This document shows positions 1-4,373 of a DNA stretch of 24,617 nt, in pieces. Each line of letters starts with the position of its first letter. Position 1 is the first letter of the stretch. A program made the position numbers and the translations under genes. Source of the DNA: a virus; IMG/VR virus record IMGVR_UViG_3300010373_000133, positions 1 through 24,617 of that record; one strand, given 5' to 3'. Below the pieces are notes generated by a model. It was not told the DNA's origin, searched no databases, and worked only from the letters and a program-made list of their open reading frames with translations.

Positions 1-621
1 GCTCTTGCCGGATTTGGTGCTACAAGTGCTATTACTGCGCCTCCTGGTGAACCACCCGGACAAGGTACGTGCGCTCATGGCAATAGCTCTACACCCTGTA
101 AGACCGATCCTTCAACTAACGGTAAAGACTGTGATCCCCACGGTAACAATGGAGGGGTGAACGAAGATCATTGTCTAGGGACGACTTCATCGTCAACTAC
201 AGTAACAACATCGACAAGCTCGACAAGCACTTCTACTCCAACGACCACTACGACACCGAAAACAACTTCATCAACATCATCTACGACGAACACATCGCCT
301 ACGACGACTTCTTCTACAAGTACATCAGGAACAACCACGTCGTCATCTACTACAACAGGTTCCACCACTACTACAAGTACGACGTCCCCTGTAGTTGGTA
401 CTACCACGACAACATCGGGTGCCCCTGCCGGTACTACGACGACAACGAGCCAGCCCTCGACTAATAAACCTGTTAAGCCCAAGCGCAAGACTAATGTAGT
501 TGGGCCACCACTTGCAGCTAAAGGTACGCTGCCCTATACAGGAATGGAGGATAACCTGCTAGTGATTATTGGTGTGTTGATGACGTTTACAGGATTTGTT
601 CTTAGGAGAGTTAAAGCATAG
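1..621 (+). CDS. Thr-rich secreted protein with LPYTG sortase signal (5' end outside window)
   Basis: Frame 1 is open from base 1, so the gene starts upstream; the GTG at 157 is internal. The visible 206 residues begin with ALAGFGATSAI, the end of a signal peptide that resembles the one in the next gene. A short Cys/His/Asn-rich segment follows (nt 64-174, with HGNSSTPC and HGNNGGVNEDHC). Then comes about 90 residues of Ser/Thr low-complexity stalk, a Lys/Arg patch, LPYTG (nt 529-543), a hydrophobic helix and a basic RRVKA tail. LPxTG plus helix plus positive tail is the classic cell-wall sorting signal, so the product is probably exported and attached to host peptidoglycan by host sortase. 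It is probably not a virion protein, because it lies outside the late operon and on the other strand. A surface-modification or superinfection role is inference. The Cys-rich motif resembles segments I recall from actinobacterial surface proteins, which I could not verify. Confidence 0.85.
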   Translation, partial: ALAGFGATSAITAPPGEPPGQGTCAHGNSSTPCKTDPSTNGKDCDPHGNNGGVNEDHCLGTTSSSTTVTTSTSSTSTSTPTTTTTPKTTSSTSSTTNTSPTTTSSTSTSGTTTSSSTTTGSTTTTSTTSPVVGTTTTTSGAPAGTTTTTSQPSTNKPVKPKRKTNVVGPPLAAKGTLPYTGMEDNLLVIIGVLMTFTGFVLRRVKA

Positions 622-630
622 GAGGATAAG

Positions 631-1740
631 ATGAGCCGCATAGTGATGTTTTTGGCACTATGCGGATTGATTGGAGCTGGATTTGGCACAAGTGCCATTC
701 TGAGTAGCTCAGGAGAGCATTCAGTCTGCAATTCTGCTACAACTACAGGACCAACTCATACAGCATCATGGGATGGAAACAACGTTTACACAGCACCCGG
801 TGATGTTCTAACGGTAACTGCTTGCGTAACAGCTACAGATCAAACTACAACCGTAACTGTTCCAACAACCATTTCTACTAGCACGACTACGCCTATTACT
901 ACTACAACGCCAACCACTACCACAACTGCGGCTACTCCGCTATTTGATGGTAGGGCATCAGGAATGACAGCAATTGATCCTATTGGTGGGCCAGGACATC
1001 AGACACAAACTCCAACTGTGTGGAGTTGTATGTGTTATATCAATGGTAATGTCAAACTGGTTTCTGACGATACCTATGGCAAAGCCTACCAGTATACTAC
1101 GAACGATTCTTCCACAAACGGATGGTACGATCCTGGTACACTAAAGGGTGCCAGCGAGTTGACTGAAACTCGTTCTGCTCCTTATACTGGTCATTGGGAT
1201 TGGTTCCGGTTTGCTATCAAAGTTCCGTCAAGTTGGCAACAAACAACTTGGAATATCATGTTCGAGCCTAATTTCCCTGAAATCACATCACCGCCTGTTG
1301 CTATTCGCTTGTCACCTAGAGCAGCAGATGGTAGTTATGCTTGGACGCGCAGCAAATACACAGCATCGTGGTGGGAAATGTCGTCTAACGTATCTAATAC
1401 GTCAGGGGGTTCTTCTTACACTGACCATGACTACTGGATTCAGCCCGTTGATTATGACCAATGGACAGAATTCGTATGGGGCATTGATTACGAGACTAAT
1501 CTGACTGGTGCATTCAAGGTCTATACGCGCCCTGTGGGGGGTTCTTGGACATTGAAAGCATCGGCCACTAACGTCAATACCTATCAGATGAAGACAAGTA
1601 GTCCGAACGATGTGCAGATGCTGTATTTCGGGGATGAGCCGTCGAACGGCTGGCCTTCGGTGCTGCCGACGAACACGGTTTTGATGCAGGGGTACCGTAG
1701 ATACGCAAATGAGCAAGATGCATTGAACGCTCCCAATTAG
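631..1740 (+). CDS. Secreted polysaccharide-lyase-like protein (heparin lyase I-like fold)
   Basis: 369 aa. The SD AGGAGG overlaps the end of the upstream gene and sits 5 nt before ATG 631. Residues 1-24 form a signal peptide (MSRIVMFLALCGLIGAGFGT), similar to the end of the upstream protein's signal. Residues 25-75 contain two Cys, residues 70-100 are a Thr-rich linker, and residues 105-369 are a globular beta-rich domain. The pattern ETRSAPYTGHWDWFRFAIKV, followed by Pro-rich strands and WTEFVWGIDYETNLTGAFKVY, recalls the concanavalin-like polysaccharide lyase family (PF14099, heparin lyase I-like). There is no LPxTG, so it would be released or held by the envelope. It may trim host surface glycans after infection or act on capsule. 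Catalytic residues were not identified, so a non-catalytic carbohydrate-binding role is possible. Confidence 0.8.
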   Translation: MSRIVMFLALCGLIGAGFGTSAILSSSGEHSVCNSATTTGPTHTASWDGNNVYTAPGDVLTVTACVTATDQTTTVTVPTTISTSTTTPITTTTPTTTTTAATPLFDGRASGMTAIDPIGGPGHQTQTPTVWSCMCYINGNVKLVSDDTYGKAYQYTTNDSSTNGWYDPGTLKGASELTETRSAPYTGHWDWFRFAIKVPSSWQQTTWNIMFEPNFPEITSPPVAIRLSPRAADGSYAWTRSKYTASWWEMSSNVSNTSGGSSYTDHDYWIQPVDYDQWTEFVWGIDYETNLTGAFKVYTRPVGGSWTLKASATNVNTYQMKTSSPNDVQMLYFGDEPSNGWPSVLPTNTVLMQGYRRYANEQDALNAPN

Positions 1741-1754
1741 ATTACGGAGGTTTG

Positions 1755-2021
1755 ATGACTCTGGACGAGATTAAACTGTACACCCTCCAAGAGAGAATCA
1801 AGGCATACGTCTATTTCGGTGTTGATGCCGAAATGGACTATATCGCTAATAAGGTTGAACAAGAGGCACTTGATCCAGATCACGAGAAAAACATACACGA
1901 CATAGAGTGGCATAAGAAGCAAGAGAATATCTTCCAAGCTAAGATTGAAAGAGCAAATAAGAGGATTGAGGACTTGCAGGTTCTTGTAGGAGTTGAACAT
2001 GAAGATCATCTACGGGGGTAG
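1755..2021 (+). CDS. Small helical hypothetical protein
   Basis: 88 aa from ATG 1755. A GGAGG lies at 1746-1750, four bases upstream; a TTG at 1752 is the alternative start and would add one residue. The protein is charged and probably all-helical. Its second half (EWHKKQENIFQAKIERANKR) has a coiled-coil-like heptad pattern. No known domain is recognised. The 3' end overlaps the next gene by 23 nt in another frame, which suggests co-translation with the P-loop protein. A pairing role is only inference. Confidence 0.75.
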   Translation: MTLDEIKLYTLQERIKAYVYFGVDAEMDYIANKVEQEALDPDHEKNIHDIEWHKKQENIFQAKIERANKRIEDLQVLVGVEHEDHLRG

Positions 2022-2322
2022 AAAGACTGGTAAGACAACTGCCCTCATTGAAATGTGTGATGAGGCAACGCGGAACGGTGAGCTTAGTTACATTGTTTGT
2101 GGTAACGTGCGAAATGCTCAAATCATCATGCAGAAGGCTAAGGAAATGGGGAAGGATATACCCTTCCCAATTACCTACGATGAATTCATGCGCCACCAGT
2201 ATGCGGGCGTTAACATCAAAAAGTTCTTCTTCGACAACGCCGACAGATTCATTCAGTGTCTCACTAACGTTGAAATCGCGGTACTGACAGTCAACAAGAC
2301 AGAGGAAGAAGATGCCCCGTAA
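1999..2322 (+). CDS. Minimal P-loop NTPase-like protein
   Basis: 107 aa from ATG 1999, six bases after a GTAGGAG SD; an in-frame TTG at 1993 is less likely. The sequence shows a Walker A box GGRKTGKT (residues 6-13) directly after the first strand. It also shows a Walker B-like FFFDNAD (residues 76-82, Asp79) and a later hydrophobic strand IAVLTVN. The central PITYDEFM segment is conserved-looking. This is much shorter than usual P-loop ATPases, which exceed 150-200 aa, so it is either a minimal nucleotide-binding core or half of a heteromeric enzyme. The substrate is unknown. It overlaps both neighbours (88-aa and 38-aa genes), consistent with one operon. Confidence 0.75.
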   Translation: MKIIYGGRKTGKTTALIEMCDEATRNGELSYIVCGNVRNAQIIMQKAKEMGKDIPFPITYDEFMRHQYAGVNIKKFFFDNADRFIQCLTNVEIAVLTVNKTEEEDAP

Positions 2323-2428
2323 GAACAAGAATAAGCGTGAAAAGTACCTTCAGAAGCAGAAGGAACGTAAGCAGCATAAGAAGAAGATCGAGAAGAAGGA
2401 AACTCCCTTTTGGGTGTCTACACCGTAG
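2312..2428 (+). CDS. 38-aa highly basic protein
   Basis: This short ORF starts at ATG 2312, inside the end of the P-loop gene, after GAGGAAG (2302-2308). It reads MPRKNKNKREKYLQ and continues with Lys/Arg/Gln repeats, then ends TPFWVSTP. About half of the residues are Lys or Arg. Such peptides typically bind nucleic acid or are ribosomal-protein-like, but no family is recognised. The stop at 2426-2428 falls inside the first small hairpin of the structured region. The start, SD and overlap fit the operon's style. Confidence 0.6.
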   Translation: MPRKNKNKREKYLQKQKERKQHKKKIEKKETPFWVSTP

Positions 2429-2580
2429 TTAGTACGGTTATGTCAGATGCCTTGGTTAAGCTCGTTAATCGGCGTCTCGGAATGGGTGGCGAGTTGGAGA
2501 GGCTCGCCGCTCGTCCTCGTTTTGCCACCCCGCTGCCACGCTGCGGCGATCCGCTCGCAAATTCGCAGGTCTACCAAGGC
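2422..2580 (+). other. GC-rich segment with nested inverted repeats (candidate structured RNA)
   Basis: From 2449 to 2580 GC is about 63% by hand count, clearly above the flanking genes. Complementary pairs visible by eye are: ACCGTA/TACGGT (2422-2427 with 2433-2438); an outer stem GCCTTGGT/ACCAAGGC (2449-2456 with 2573-2580); GGGTGGCGAG with TTTGCCACCC (2484-2493 with 2521-2530, three G-U pairs) enclosing GAGG/CCTC (2499-2502 with 2515-2518); and CGCTGC/GCGGCG (2531-2536 with 2543-2548). Together they form a closed multi-branch fold, which suggests a structured RNA or cis-regulatory leader of the RuvC-like gene. The segment can also be read as an open frame (ATG 2440 to stop 2619, TAATG overlap with the next gene), but its GC-rich, Arg/Leu/Pro-heavy codons differ from neighbours. 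A recently inserted small repeat element is another option. Confidence 0.45.
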
Positions 2581-2618
2581 CAAACCTCAGCAGGCTTTAG
2601 AGAGGCGATTGATAACTA

Positions 2619-3128
2619 ATGGTGGACAATCTAATCAAGGTTATCGCATTAGACCCAGGAGGCACAACAGGATGGGCTAAGGGTCTTATTCGCGATGGTA
2701 AGATGTATGCAATAAGTGGTCAAGAGAAGTGGAATCACATTCAGCTCTACAATTCTCTTAAGCTCTCCAAGCCTGATATCATTGTCTGCGAGAGATTCGA
2801 TTATCGCAAGGGTGGGTATAAGCAAGAAGGCGTAGAACTCATCAGTAGAGAGTACATCGGTGTTGTGCAACTGTATGTCCAGAAAGAAAACGTAAAGCTC
2901 AGTCCTGAACCTTTGAAGGATTACACAAGAGTAAAGCTTTACATGCAAATGCCTTCTGAGGGTGTAGGGGGTTACTGGAAGGAGGATTCAAAACTTAAAG
3001 AGGATGGAATGTTCATGGTTGGTAAGCCTCATGCGAATGATGCCATGAGACACCTTCTACAGTGGTTCGTATTCAAAGAAGGCTATCAGTTCAATAAGGA
3101 AGGGTTTGCTAGATTGGATGACAAATGA
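2619..3128 (+). CDS. RuvC-like endonuclease (Holliday junction resolvase family)
   Basis: 169 aa, about the size of RuvC. The RNase-H-fold signature is present: ALDPGGTTGWA with Asp12 on strand 1, DIIVCERF with Glu58 on strand 4, and HANDAMRHLLQW with His138/Asp141 on the last helix. These fit the metal-binding acidic residues of RuvC-family nucleases, which resolve branched DNA before packaging. The start at ATG 2619 overlaps a TAA (TAATG), and the nearest SD-like GAGAGG is 13 nt upstream, which is long. Initiation may therefore depend on the upstream region. Strand and neighbours place it with non-structural genes. Confidence 0.85.
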   Translation: MVDNLIKVIALDPGGTTGWAKGLIRDGKMYAISGQEKWNHIQLYNSLKLSKPDIIVCERFDYRKGGYKQEGVELISREYIGVVQLYVQKENVKLSPEPLKDYTRVKLYMQMPSEGVGGYWKEDSKLKEDGMFMVGKPHANDAMRHLLQWFVFKEGYQFNKEGFARLDDK

Positions 3129-3154
3129 TGCATTACGCCTGAAAGGATAGAGAA

Positions 3155-3349
3155 ATGGGTAGATTGCCTCAACAAAGCCCACCATACCCAGAAGAAAAGA
3201 AATATACTCTTAATGAAGCAAAAGCAGAGTTAGATCGTCAGGAATGCAATCTCAATGGGCATGATTTTGATATCATCGTTTTTAACTTTTCTCTTGATCC
3301 CCAAGAGATTATTTGTCAGAGATGCAACAAAAAGTGGAGGGTAGCATGA
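3155..3349 (+). CDS. Small zinc-binding-like protein
   Basis: 64 aa, with SD AAAGGATAG before ATG 3155. Cys31 and His36 (CNLNGH) and Cys54/Cys57 (ICQRCNKKW) form a C-x4-H...C-x2-C set typical of small zinc ribbons or knuckles in phage proteins. It could bind nucleic acid or protein; the partner is unknown. Its stop overlaps the next start (ATGA at 3346-3349), indicating coupled translation with the TIM-barrel-like gene. Confidence 0.75.
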   Translation: MGRLPQQSPPYPEEKKYTLNEAKAELDRQECNLNGHDFDIIVFNFSLDPQEIICQRCNKKWRVA

Positions 3350-4020
3350 AAACTATTTGGCGTGAGAATCCTAGGGGTAGCAAGTATTGGCCTAGTGAGA
3401 AGGCTAGGGATGCTGAGAAGGCTTTGGGTATTACTCGCATCTACTATCCTACACATATGAAAGACCCCAATACTGGTAAGTTCGTTGAGAACACTATTGA
3501 GATGAATGCTCAATTTTGTACTGATATCTCAACAAGGTTCGAGTTTGGTATTTATGAGCATACCGATGGTTGGGGACTTCCTGCAACTGCCCAAGCAATT
3601 GTTGATCGTATGGATAAGTATTTCAAGATGTGCGGCAAAGTTAAAGGCGTCATGTTCAACATTGAGACTCATAACATCAATGACCTGATTATTAACATCA
3701 TCGCCCTCTGGCGTCAAAAACACCCCACAGGTCCGATCGCGTGGGCTATGGAGGGTTTCCAAGGGGGATGGATGAATCAGGCGATGATTAACAAAGTGAA
3801 CAATGATACGAATATGGTAGTCGTGCCTGAAAACTTCGATGGTAACATGAATCCTCTTGCTCCTAGGAATGGGGTAACGCCCAAGCAGGAGTTGATTAAA
3901 TTGGGATTCGCTAGCAATCGGGTTAAGGAATTTTATGATGGTAAGTTGGTAGATCAGTATAAAGCTAGTTGGGACGGTTGTATCCTTAGTGAAGAAAGAT
4001 TGCCTACTTACAATTCATGA
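3346..4020 (+). CDS. TIM-barrel-like protein, possible glycoside hydrolase
   Basis: 224 aa. ATG 3346 is chosen because GTGGAGG lies five bases upstream and the start overlaps the preceding stop; an in-frame TTG at 3313 lacks this support. Successive strand-helix units are visible, and several strands end in acidic residues: RIYYPTH, FEFGIYE (Glu71), GVMFNIE (Glu107), IAWAMEG (Glu136), MVVVPENFD (Glu162) and RVKEFYDG (Asp198). That arrangement is usual for beta/alpha-barrel glycosidases such as GH25-like enzymes. I do not recognise the exact family, and it carries no signal peptide or wall-binding domain. The location outside the lysis cassette argues against it being the main endolysin. Confidence 0.6.
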   Translation: MKTIWRENPRGSKYWPSEKARDAEKALGITRIYYPTHMKDPNTGKFVENTIEMNAQFCTDISTRFEFGIYEHTDGWGLPATAQAIVDRMDKYFKMCGKVKGVMFNIETHNINDLIINIIALWRQKHPTGPIAWAMEGFQGGWMNQAMINKVNNDTNMVVVPENFDGNMNPLAPRNGVTPKQELIKLGFASNRVKEFYDGKLVDQYKASWDGCILSEERLPTYNS

Positions 4021-4373
4021 GTACTGGCGATCCATTAGTAGTTGTTGCTGCTGATCTTAAAGTCATCTTAGACGACTACTTTAGGGAAGAGGACAAGAAA
4101 AGACCTAAAGGACAGACAGACGGGTTCAAAAATAGAAATACTTCGTTCTACGGAGTTAAGCAATATTTAGCGGATCAATCTGGAATATCTGTTAGTAAAA
4201 TGTATCAAATAACTGAAGGGAAAATAGAGCATACATCGTTAAAAGTTGCAGACGCTTTATTGTCGGGTATGGAACGACCGGATTTAATGCGTCATATTCG
4301 TGTTGTTCCTAATCCTCGATGGAGCCAAGAAAAGTGGCTAGCATGGAAACAATCGTGTGATAGTGAAGAATAG
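4017..4373 (+). CDS. Helix-turn-helix protein
   Basis: 118 aa. ATG 4017 overlaps the upstream stop (ATGA), with no good SD of its own, so translation is probably coupled. Residues 46-82 (GVKQYLADQSGISVSKMYQI, then a helix to ADALL) look like a Cro/XRE-type helix-turn-helix. A charged N-terminal helix and a Trp-containing C-terminal tail (RWSQEKWLAWK) flank it. It probably binds DNA as a regulator. It is the last gene of the + strand arm and ends just before the terminator. Confidence 0.7.
   Translation: MSTGDPLVVVAADLKVILDDYFREEDKKRPKGQTDGFKNRNTSFYGVKQYLADQSGISVSKMYQITEGKIEHTSLKVADALLSGMERPDLMRHIRVVPNPRWSQEKWLAWKQSCDSEE

Follow-up and report, generated by a model that had tools for sequence, protein, structure and literature searches.

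The phage proteins known to work at the surface of the host cell are for the most part lipoproteins or membrane proteins. Ltp-type exclusion proteins are surface lipoproteins with a lipobox and paired helix-turn-helix domains, and they block the entry of superinfecting phage DNA. Ltp of the Streptococcus thermophilus phage TP-J34 is described as a superinfection exclusion lipoprotein and is firmly linked to exclusion (PMC3952083). The Ltp-like protein gp41 of Cutibacterium acnes phages is tentatively linked to superinfection exclusion and is made during infection by phages persisting as pseudolysogens (PMC11480721). For sortase-anchored proteins in phages of this kind no description was found in the openly licensed literature.

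The window, that is the whole stretch of DNA analysed here, is the linear IMG/VR record IMGVR_UViG_3300010373_000133 with a length of 24,617 bases and is probably a phage genome fragment. Using PHROGs, portal, maturation protease, major head, minor tail, tape measure and Dit-like proteins were identified on the minus strand, together with an endolysin. On the basis of this structural set and the endolysin the phage is a siphophage; its host is probably an actinobacterium. The plus-strand genes at 1-4373 face the minus-strand late genes. The plus-strand genes include ORF A and ORF B, which form a tight cassette with the next gene, g89, inside the replication block. The gap from the stop codon of A to the start codon of B is 9 nt, the ATG of g89 comes 14 bases after B, and each of these two genes has a GGAGG site of its own in front of it. 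The features of the cassette are as follows.

1..621, plus strand: ORF A, 5'-truncated, 206 aa, predicted secreted, sortase-anchored surface protein of the NEDHC family
1..36, plus strand: end of the signal peptide of A (ALAGFGATSAIT), from the sequence; n-region and start codon lie beyond the contig edge
70..174, plus strand: Cys domain of A, C24-C58, with four Cys (CAHGNSSTPCKTDPSTNGKDCDPHGNNGGVNEDHC), conserved in 6 viral and 7 genome contigs
181..465, plus strand: Thr/Ser-rich stalk of A, from the translation
529..618, plus strand: LPYTG sorting signal (529-543), hydrophobic stretch and RRVKA tail, by TIGR01167
631..1740, plus strand: ORF B, 369 aa, predicted secreted protein with a polysaccharide-lyase-like domain, GGAGG ribosome-binding site just 5'
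631..696, plus strand: signal peptide of B (MSRIVMFLALCGLIGAGFGTSA), from the translation, judged by eye
826..933, plus strand: Thr-rich linker of B, from the translation
937..1737, plus strand: concanavalin-A-like or polysaccharide-lyase-fold domain of B, by profile, AF2 and Foldseek
1264..1272, plus strand: E-P-N, residues 212-214 of B; [QE]-x-H in relatives, with His replaced by Asn214
1624..1644, plus strand: YFGDEPS, residues 332-338 of B; YxKxGxY-like residues in relatives
1755..2021, plus strand: g89, with its own GGAGG site; its homologue lies 3' of the DNA polymerase gene in the related phage G001

Further open frames of the window were recorded. A short, very Lys-rich frame (MPRKNKNKREKYLQKQKERKQHKKK...) is located at 2313-2400 between the P-loop and RuvC-like genes. 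On the minus strand, a Val-rich open frame of 106 aa at 168-488 is an antisense shadow of the Thr-rich stalk and probably no gene. Near the lysis genes, differing proteins that look glycan-active by eye are encoded in the window (3346-4020) and in two related phages (G002, L023 14693-15640; G001, L020 4949-5926); no confident Pfam family was found for them.

Since the contig begins inside the signal peptide, ORF A lacks a visible start codon and n-region. The visible end of the peptide resembles the signal peptides of B and of the chromosomal homologues of A. The C-terminus reads LPYTG..LLVIIGVLMTFTGFVL..RRVKA, and LPXTG motif, hydrophobic segment and positive tail are all present. ORF A scored 17.5 bits with the NCBIfam model TIGR01167, for which the cut-off is 15.9. 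This model is permissive: in six-frame searches of 14 control genomes, 9 gave a score above the cut-off. As TIGR01167 alone is weak, homologues of A were sought, and the likeness to LPXTG proteins encoded in chromosomes, whose domains follow the same order, now supports the cell-wall sorting signal that the earlier note had read in A. No Pfam family matched the Cys domain and NCBIfam models did so only far below threshold; MAP_0585 was set aside for A and its homologues, with 15-23 bits against a cut-off of 170. A tblastn search with A in phages or plasmids returned no relatives.

The homologues came from a degenerate DNA pattern for DCxxHGxxGGxNEDHC, which matched 6 viral contigs and 7 genome contigs, the latter all from Actinomycetota (Microbacterium, Arsenicicoccus and two MAGs). 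By its sequence, the Cys domain of A belongs to this unnamed family of predicted secreted proteins, which we call NEDHC. The family signature HGN..xP..DP...GxDCxxHGxxGGxNEDHC, placed after the signal peptide, is present in A (alignment A1). The alignment contains 16 invariant columns; H26, G27, D36, P37 and G41 are invariant though they lie outside the search pattern. Nearest to A is a protein of the MAG MGR_bin368 (61% identity), followed by those of the viral contigs G017 and G021 (both 59%). The domain is thinly spread: a profile search detected it in 4 of 299 genomes in the class of G027 and in 4 of 297 in the class of G023. One homologue, in the genome G185, runs from a signal peptide and Cys domain through Thr-rich repeats to an LPFTG end; its contig is apparently chromosomal because it carries an acyl-CoA carboxylase-like gene (by eye). 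Another, on the MAG contig of L047, has a C-terminal LPYTG. A is best read as a phage copy of what appears to be an Actinomycetota cell-wall protein family.

The gene neighbours in the viral contigs indicate that the replication-side position of A recurs. In G022 a single block contains the NEDHC gene together with genes for WhiB, SSB, Sak4 and exonuclease, and the NEDHC product has LAKTG at its C-terminus. The NEDHC gene overlaps one for RusA in both G018 and G020, and in G021 it lies between a dCMP-deaminase-like gene (by eye, 5') and a sortase gene (3'; PF04203, E=5e-15). The contexts in G017, where a terminase gene is near, and in G019 differ from this position. The G021 contig measures 146 kb, and at L077 17631-18540 the NEDHC-family gene for a secreted protein has the sortase gene immediately 3'; the two are possibly a phage-encoded sortase plus its substrate.

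The NEDHC core is strongly invariant across phages and hosts, as would also be expected if the domain of A were a decoy or receptor mimic that captures rival phages or debris on the wall, B being a neighbour with no tie to it. The domain has no known binding partner, however, and we regard such a role as very unlikely.

Unlike A, ORF B is complete. Its product consists of the signal peptide, a short Cys-containing segment, the Thr-rich linker and the C-terminal lyase-like domain, and it carries no anchor. The translations thus display Thr-rich regions in both proteins, as had been noted earlier. The Pfam family PF14099 (Polysacc_lyase) matched B with E=4e-5 and 24.0 bits, short of the gathering threshold of 29.9. 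When B and ten PF14099 relatives were combined in a profile, it matched the glucuronan lyase of PL20 (2e-11) and heparin lyase I of PL13, and these matches owe as much to the relatives as to B. With a shallow alignment containing PF14099 relatives as input, the AF2 model reached a pTM of 0.71 and a mean pLDDT of 64, and Foldseek placed PL7, PL20 and PL28 lyases at the top and PL13 and PL14 lower. AF2 yielded a poor model when no alignment was supplied, and the fold therefore depends on the placement of B in this family. Modelled in this way, the domain appears to be a divergent polysaccharide-lyase fold of the PL7/PL13/PL20 type. Other searches with B gave little: phmmer against the PDB produced nanobody chance matches only, exact peptide patterns found no relatives in viral_contigs, tblastn in phages or plasmids gave none beyond one meaningless match (E=0.8), and the 297 genomes searched from the phylum to which G027 belongs had none either.

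The His of the [QE]xH motif is kept in 10/10 relatives examined and is Asn214 in B; the profile of the relatives alone aligns B across this site. The YxKxGxY motif is not kept either, and reads YFGDEPS in a low-similarity region of B where the alignment is less certain. With both motifs changed, enzyme activity of B is doubtful and sugar binding seems likelier. The PL20 enzyme 2zzj also has no His at the aligned position (QFIAN), so that activity is doubtful rather than excluded and the His loss alone is no bar to it. This point, together with a fold and distant family shared with PL7, PL13 and PL20 lyases, would suit an active polysaccharide lyase that thins capsule or slime for the escape or diffusion of progeny, with A as an unrelated surface protein. 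The change of [QE]xH to EPN, of YxKxGxY to YFGDEPS, and the His in every relative examined argue against it; they demote a plain active-lyase reading of B, which we consider rather unlikely. Of the lyase-like domain proposed in the earlier note, the fold type and the missing anchor stood, with the correction that the domain lacks the residues that catalysis would call for.

The similarity of the signal-peptide cores of A and B that had been pointed out before is found at the DNA level: the local score of 27 between the two signal regions was reached by 0 of 5000 codon shuffles of that region. For the protein likeness 1/5000 shuffles reached the score. An export module passed between the two genes in either direction, as then suggested, would fit this likeness, but the signal peptide of B gives a still higher score with the signal peptide of a homologue of A from a chromosome (57) than with that of A itself (37).

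To compare the locus with related phages, the major head protein was used as a query and gave relatives at 58-92% identity, two of them within records of ~57-59 kb; the endolysin added two further records of this size class. Both A and B are missing from four related records of ~57-58 kb (G001, G002, G004 and G012), and in G001 the g89 homologue lies 3' of the DNA polymerase gene with no A-B-like pair between. Judged from this distribution, A and B are a local accessory insertion and no conserved pair. The RuvC-like and P-loop neighbours returned no related loci as queries. B was not found in genomes or contigs carrying the family of A, nor in the related phages, and A and B occur together in no other record searched; separate contigs of the genome G027 code for a relative of A and for two PF14099 proteins, of which one contains a Thr-rich linker. 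Since in the records searched the pair is confined to the window contig, it gives no sign that selection has favoured a joint function.

The related phages encode other apparently secreted proteins. Those at L023 3028-3726 (G002) and L027 9080-9619 (G004 29080-29619) comprise one with a HEDMH motif, zinc-protease-like, and one that is lytic-transglycosylase-like, with no Pfam match. At L030 18496-19479 (G012 38496-39479) a holin-adjacent gene codes for a Pro/Thr linker and a FNDEFNGT segment that is GH16-like by eye, again with no Pfam match.

Phage_integrase and Resolvase gave no match in the window or nine other records, which may be incomplete, and no tyrosine or serine integrase family matched in the four related records of ~57-58 kb; the integrase and Resolvase profiles do match in control genomes. 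Lysogeny of the phage, at which the earlier note had hinted, finds no support. The same result bears on the idea that A and B are cargo serving the host cell, for example in adhesion or protection, during a long or carrier-state infection, as in lysogenic conversion. That A copies a host family and that both genes are accessory and missing from related phages would agree with such cargo. The lack of an integrase match in these possibly incomplete records and the location of the genes in the replication block speak against it, and we judge it unlikely.

Phage tail proteins can contain concanavalin-A-like domains, and one or both products might accordingly be parts of the virion, such as tail-associated sugar-binding proteins. 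ORF A and ORF B, however, are on the strand opposite to all structural genes and, as stated earlier, outside the late operon. Also against it are the signal peptides of the Sec type, the sorting signal and the homologues that bacterial chromosomes encode. On the grounds of strand and signals the virion reading was rejected, as extremely improbable.

We therefore return to the host surface, whose remodelling had already been proposed and which the export-type signals of both proteins, the sorting signal of A and the lyase-type fold of B make the best reading. That A and B reach the surface by export is very probable. We place roughly even confidence in the fuller proposal that they are surface modifiers acquired from actinobacteria and made early in the host of an actinobacterial siphophage, with a likely benefit in re-adsorption. 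Early timing we infer from gene position. A would be exported by Sec, and the host's own sortase would cut it at LPYTG and join it to the wall; with such a sorting signal, the known workings of sortases would lead to the export and anchoring of A. Anchored A would display the small Cys-rich NEDHC domain on its Thr-rich stalk. B would also be exported through Sec and then released, and its lyase-fold domain with the changed active site would bind, or less likely cleave, an acidic polysaccharide of the cell surface. Infected cells and debris would then re-adsorb the same or competing phages less. This last step is drawn by analogy with Ltp and gp41 of C. acnes phages, and superinfection exclusion as the benefit is a tentative suggestion, somewhat less probable than not; the sequence itself does not favour it over roles such as adhesion or protection.

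NEDHC is conserved but has no model in Pfam or NCBIfam, and actinobacterial chromosomes and several unrelated phages have it in common. A phage protein of this family anchored by sortase would open a new route to understanding how re-adsorption is controlled by phages of poorly cultured Actinomycetota, and would also hint at the function of the host family. More speculatively, and with little confidence, Actinomycetota phages may have captured NEDHC repeatedly, with the host's or their own sortase coating infected cells and a B-type lyase fold as sugar-binding partner, which would amount to covalent surface exclusion.

Compared with described proteins, A resembles the Actinomycetota LPXTG wall proteins (TIGR01167) in its stalk and its LPXTG motif with hydrophobic stretch and basic tail, and in the visible end of a probable signal peptide; it differs in being phage-encoded and in that its start lies beyond the contig edge. 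B is similar by profile and fold to the concanavalin-A-fold lyases, namely PF14099 (PL20 2zzj, PL13 heparin lyase I), the PL7 alginate lyases and chlorovirus vAL-1 (3gne), but it stays below the Pfam gathering score and does not keep the conserved His and the YxKxGxY signature. No sequence relation of A or B to Ltp or gp41 was found, nor an Ltp-type domain in either (Pfam, NCBIfam) or a lipobox in B by eye. The likeness to Ltp and gp41 is that of phage-encoded, exported proteins of the Gram-positive host surface with a disordered linker. The difference is in the attachment: Ltp is held by lipid and gp41 by a predicted N-terminal membrane segment, whereas A would be held covalently by sortase.
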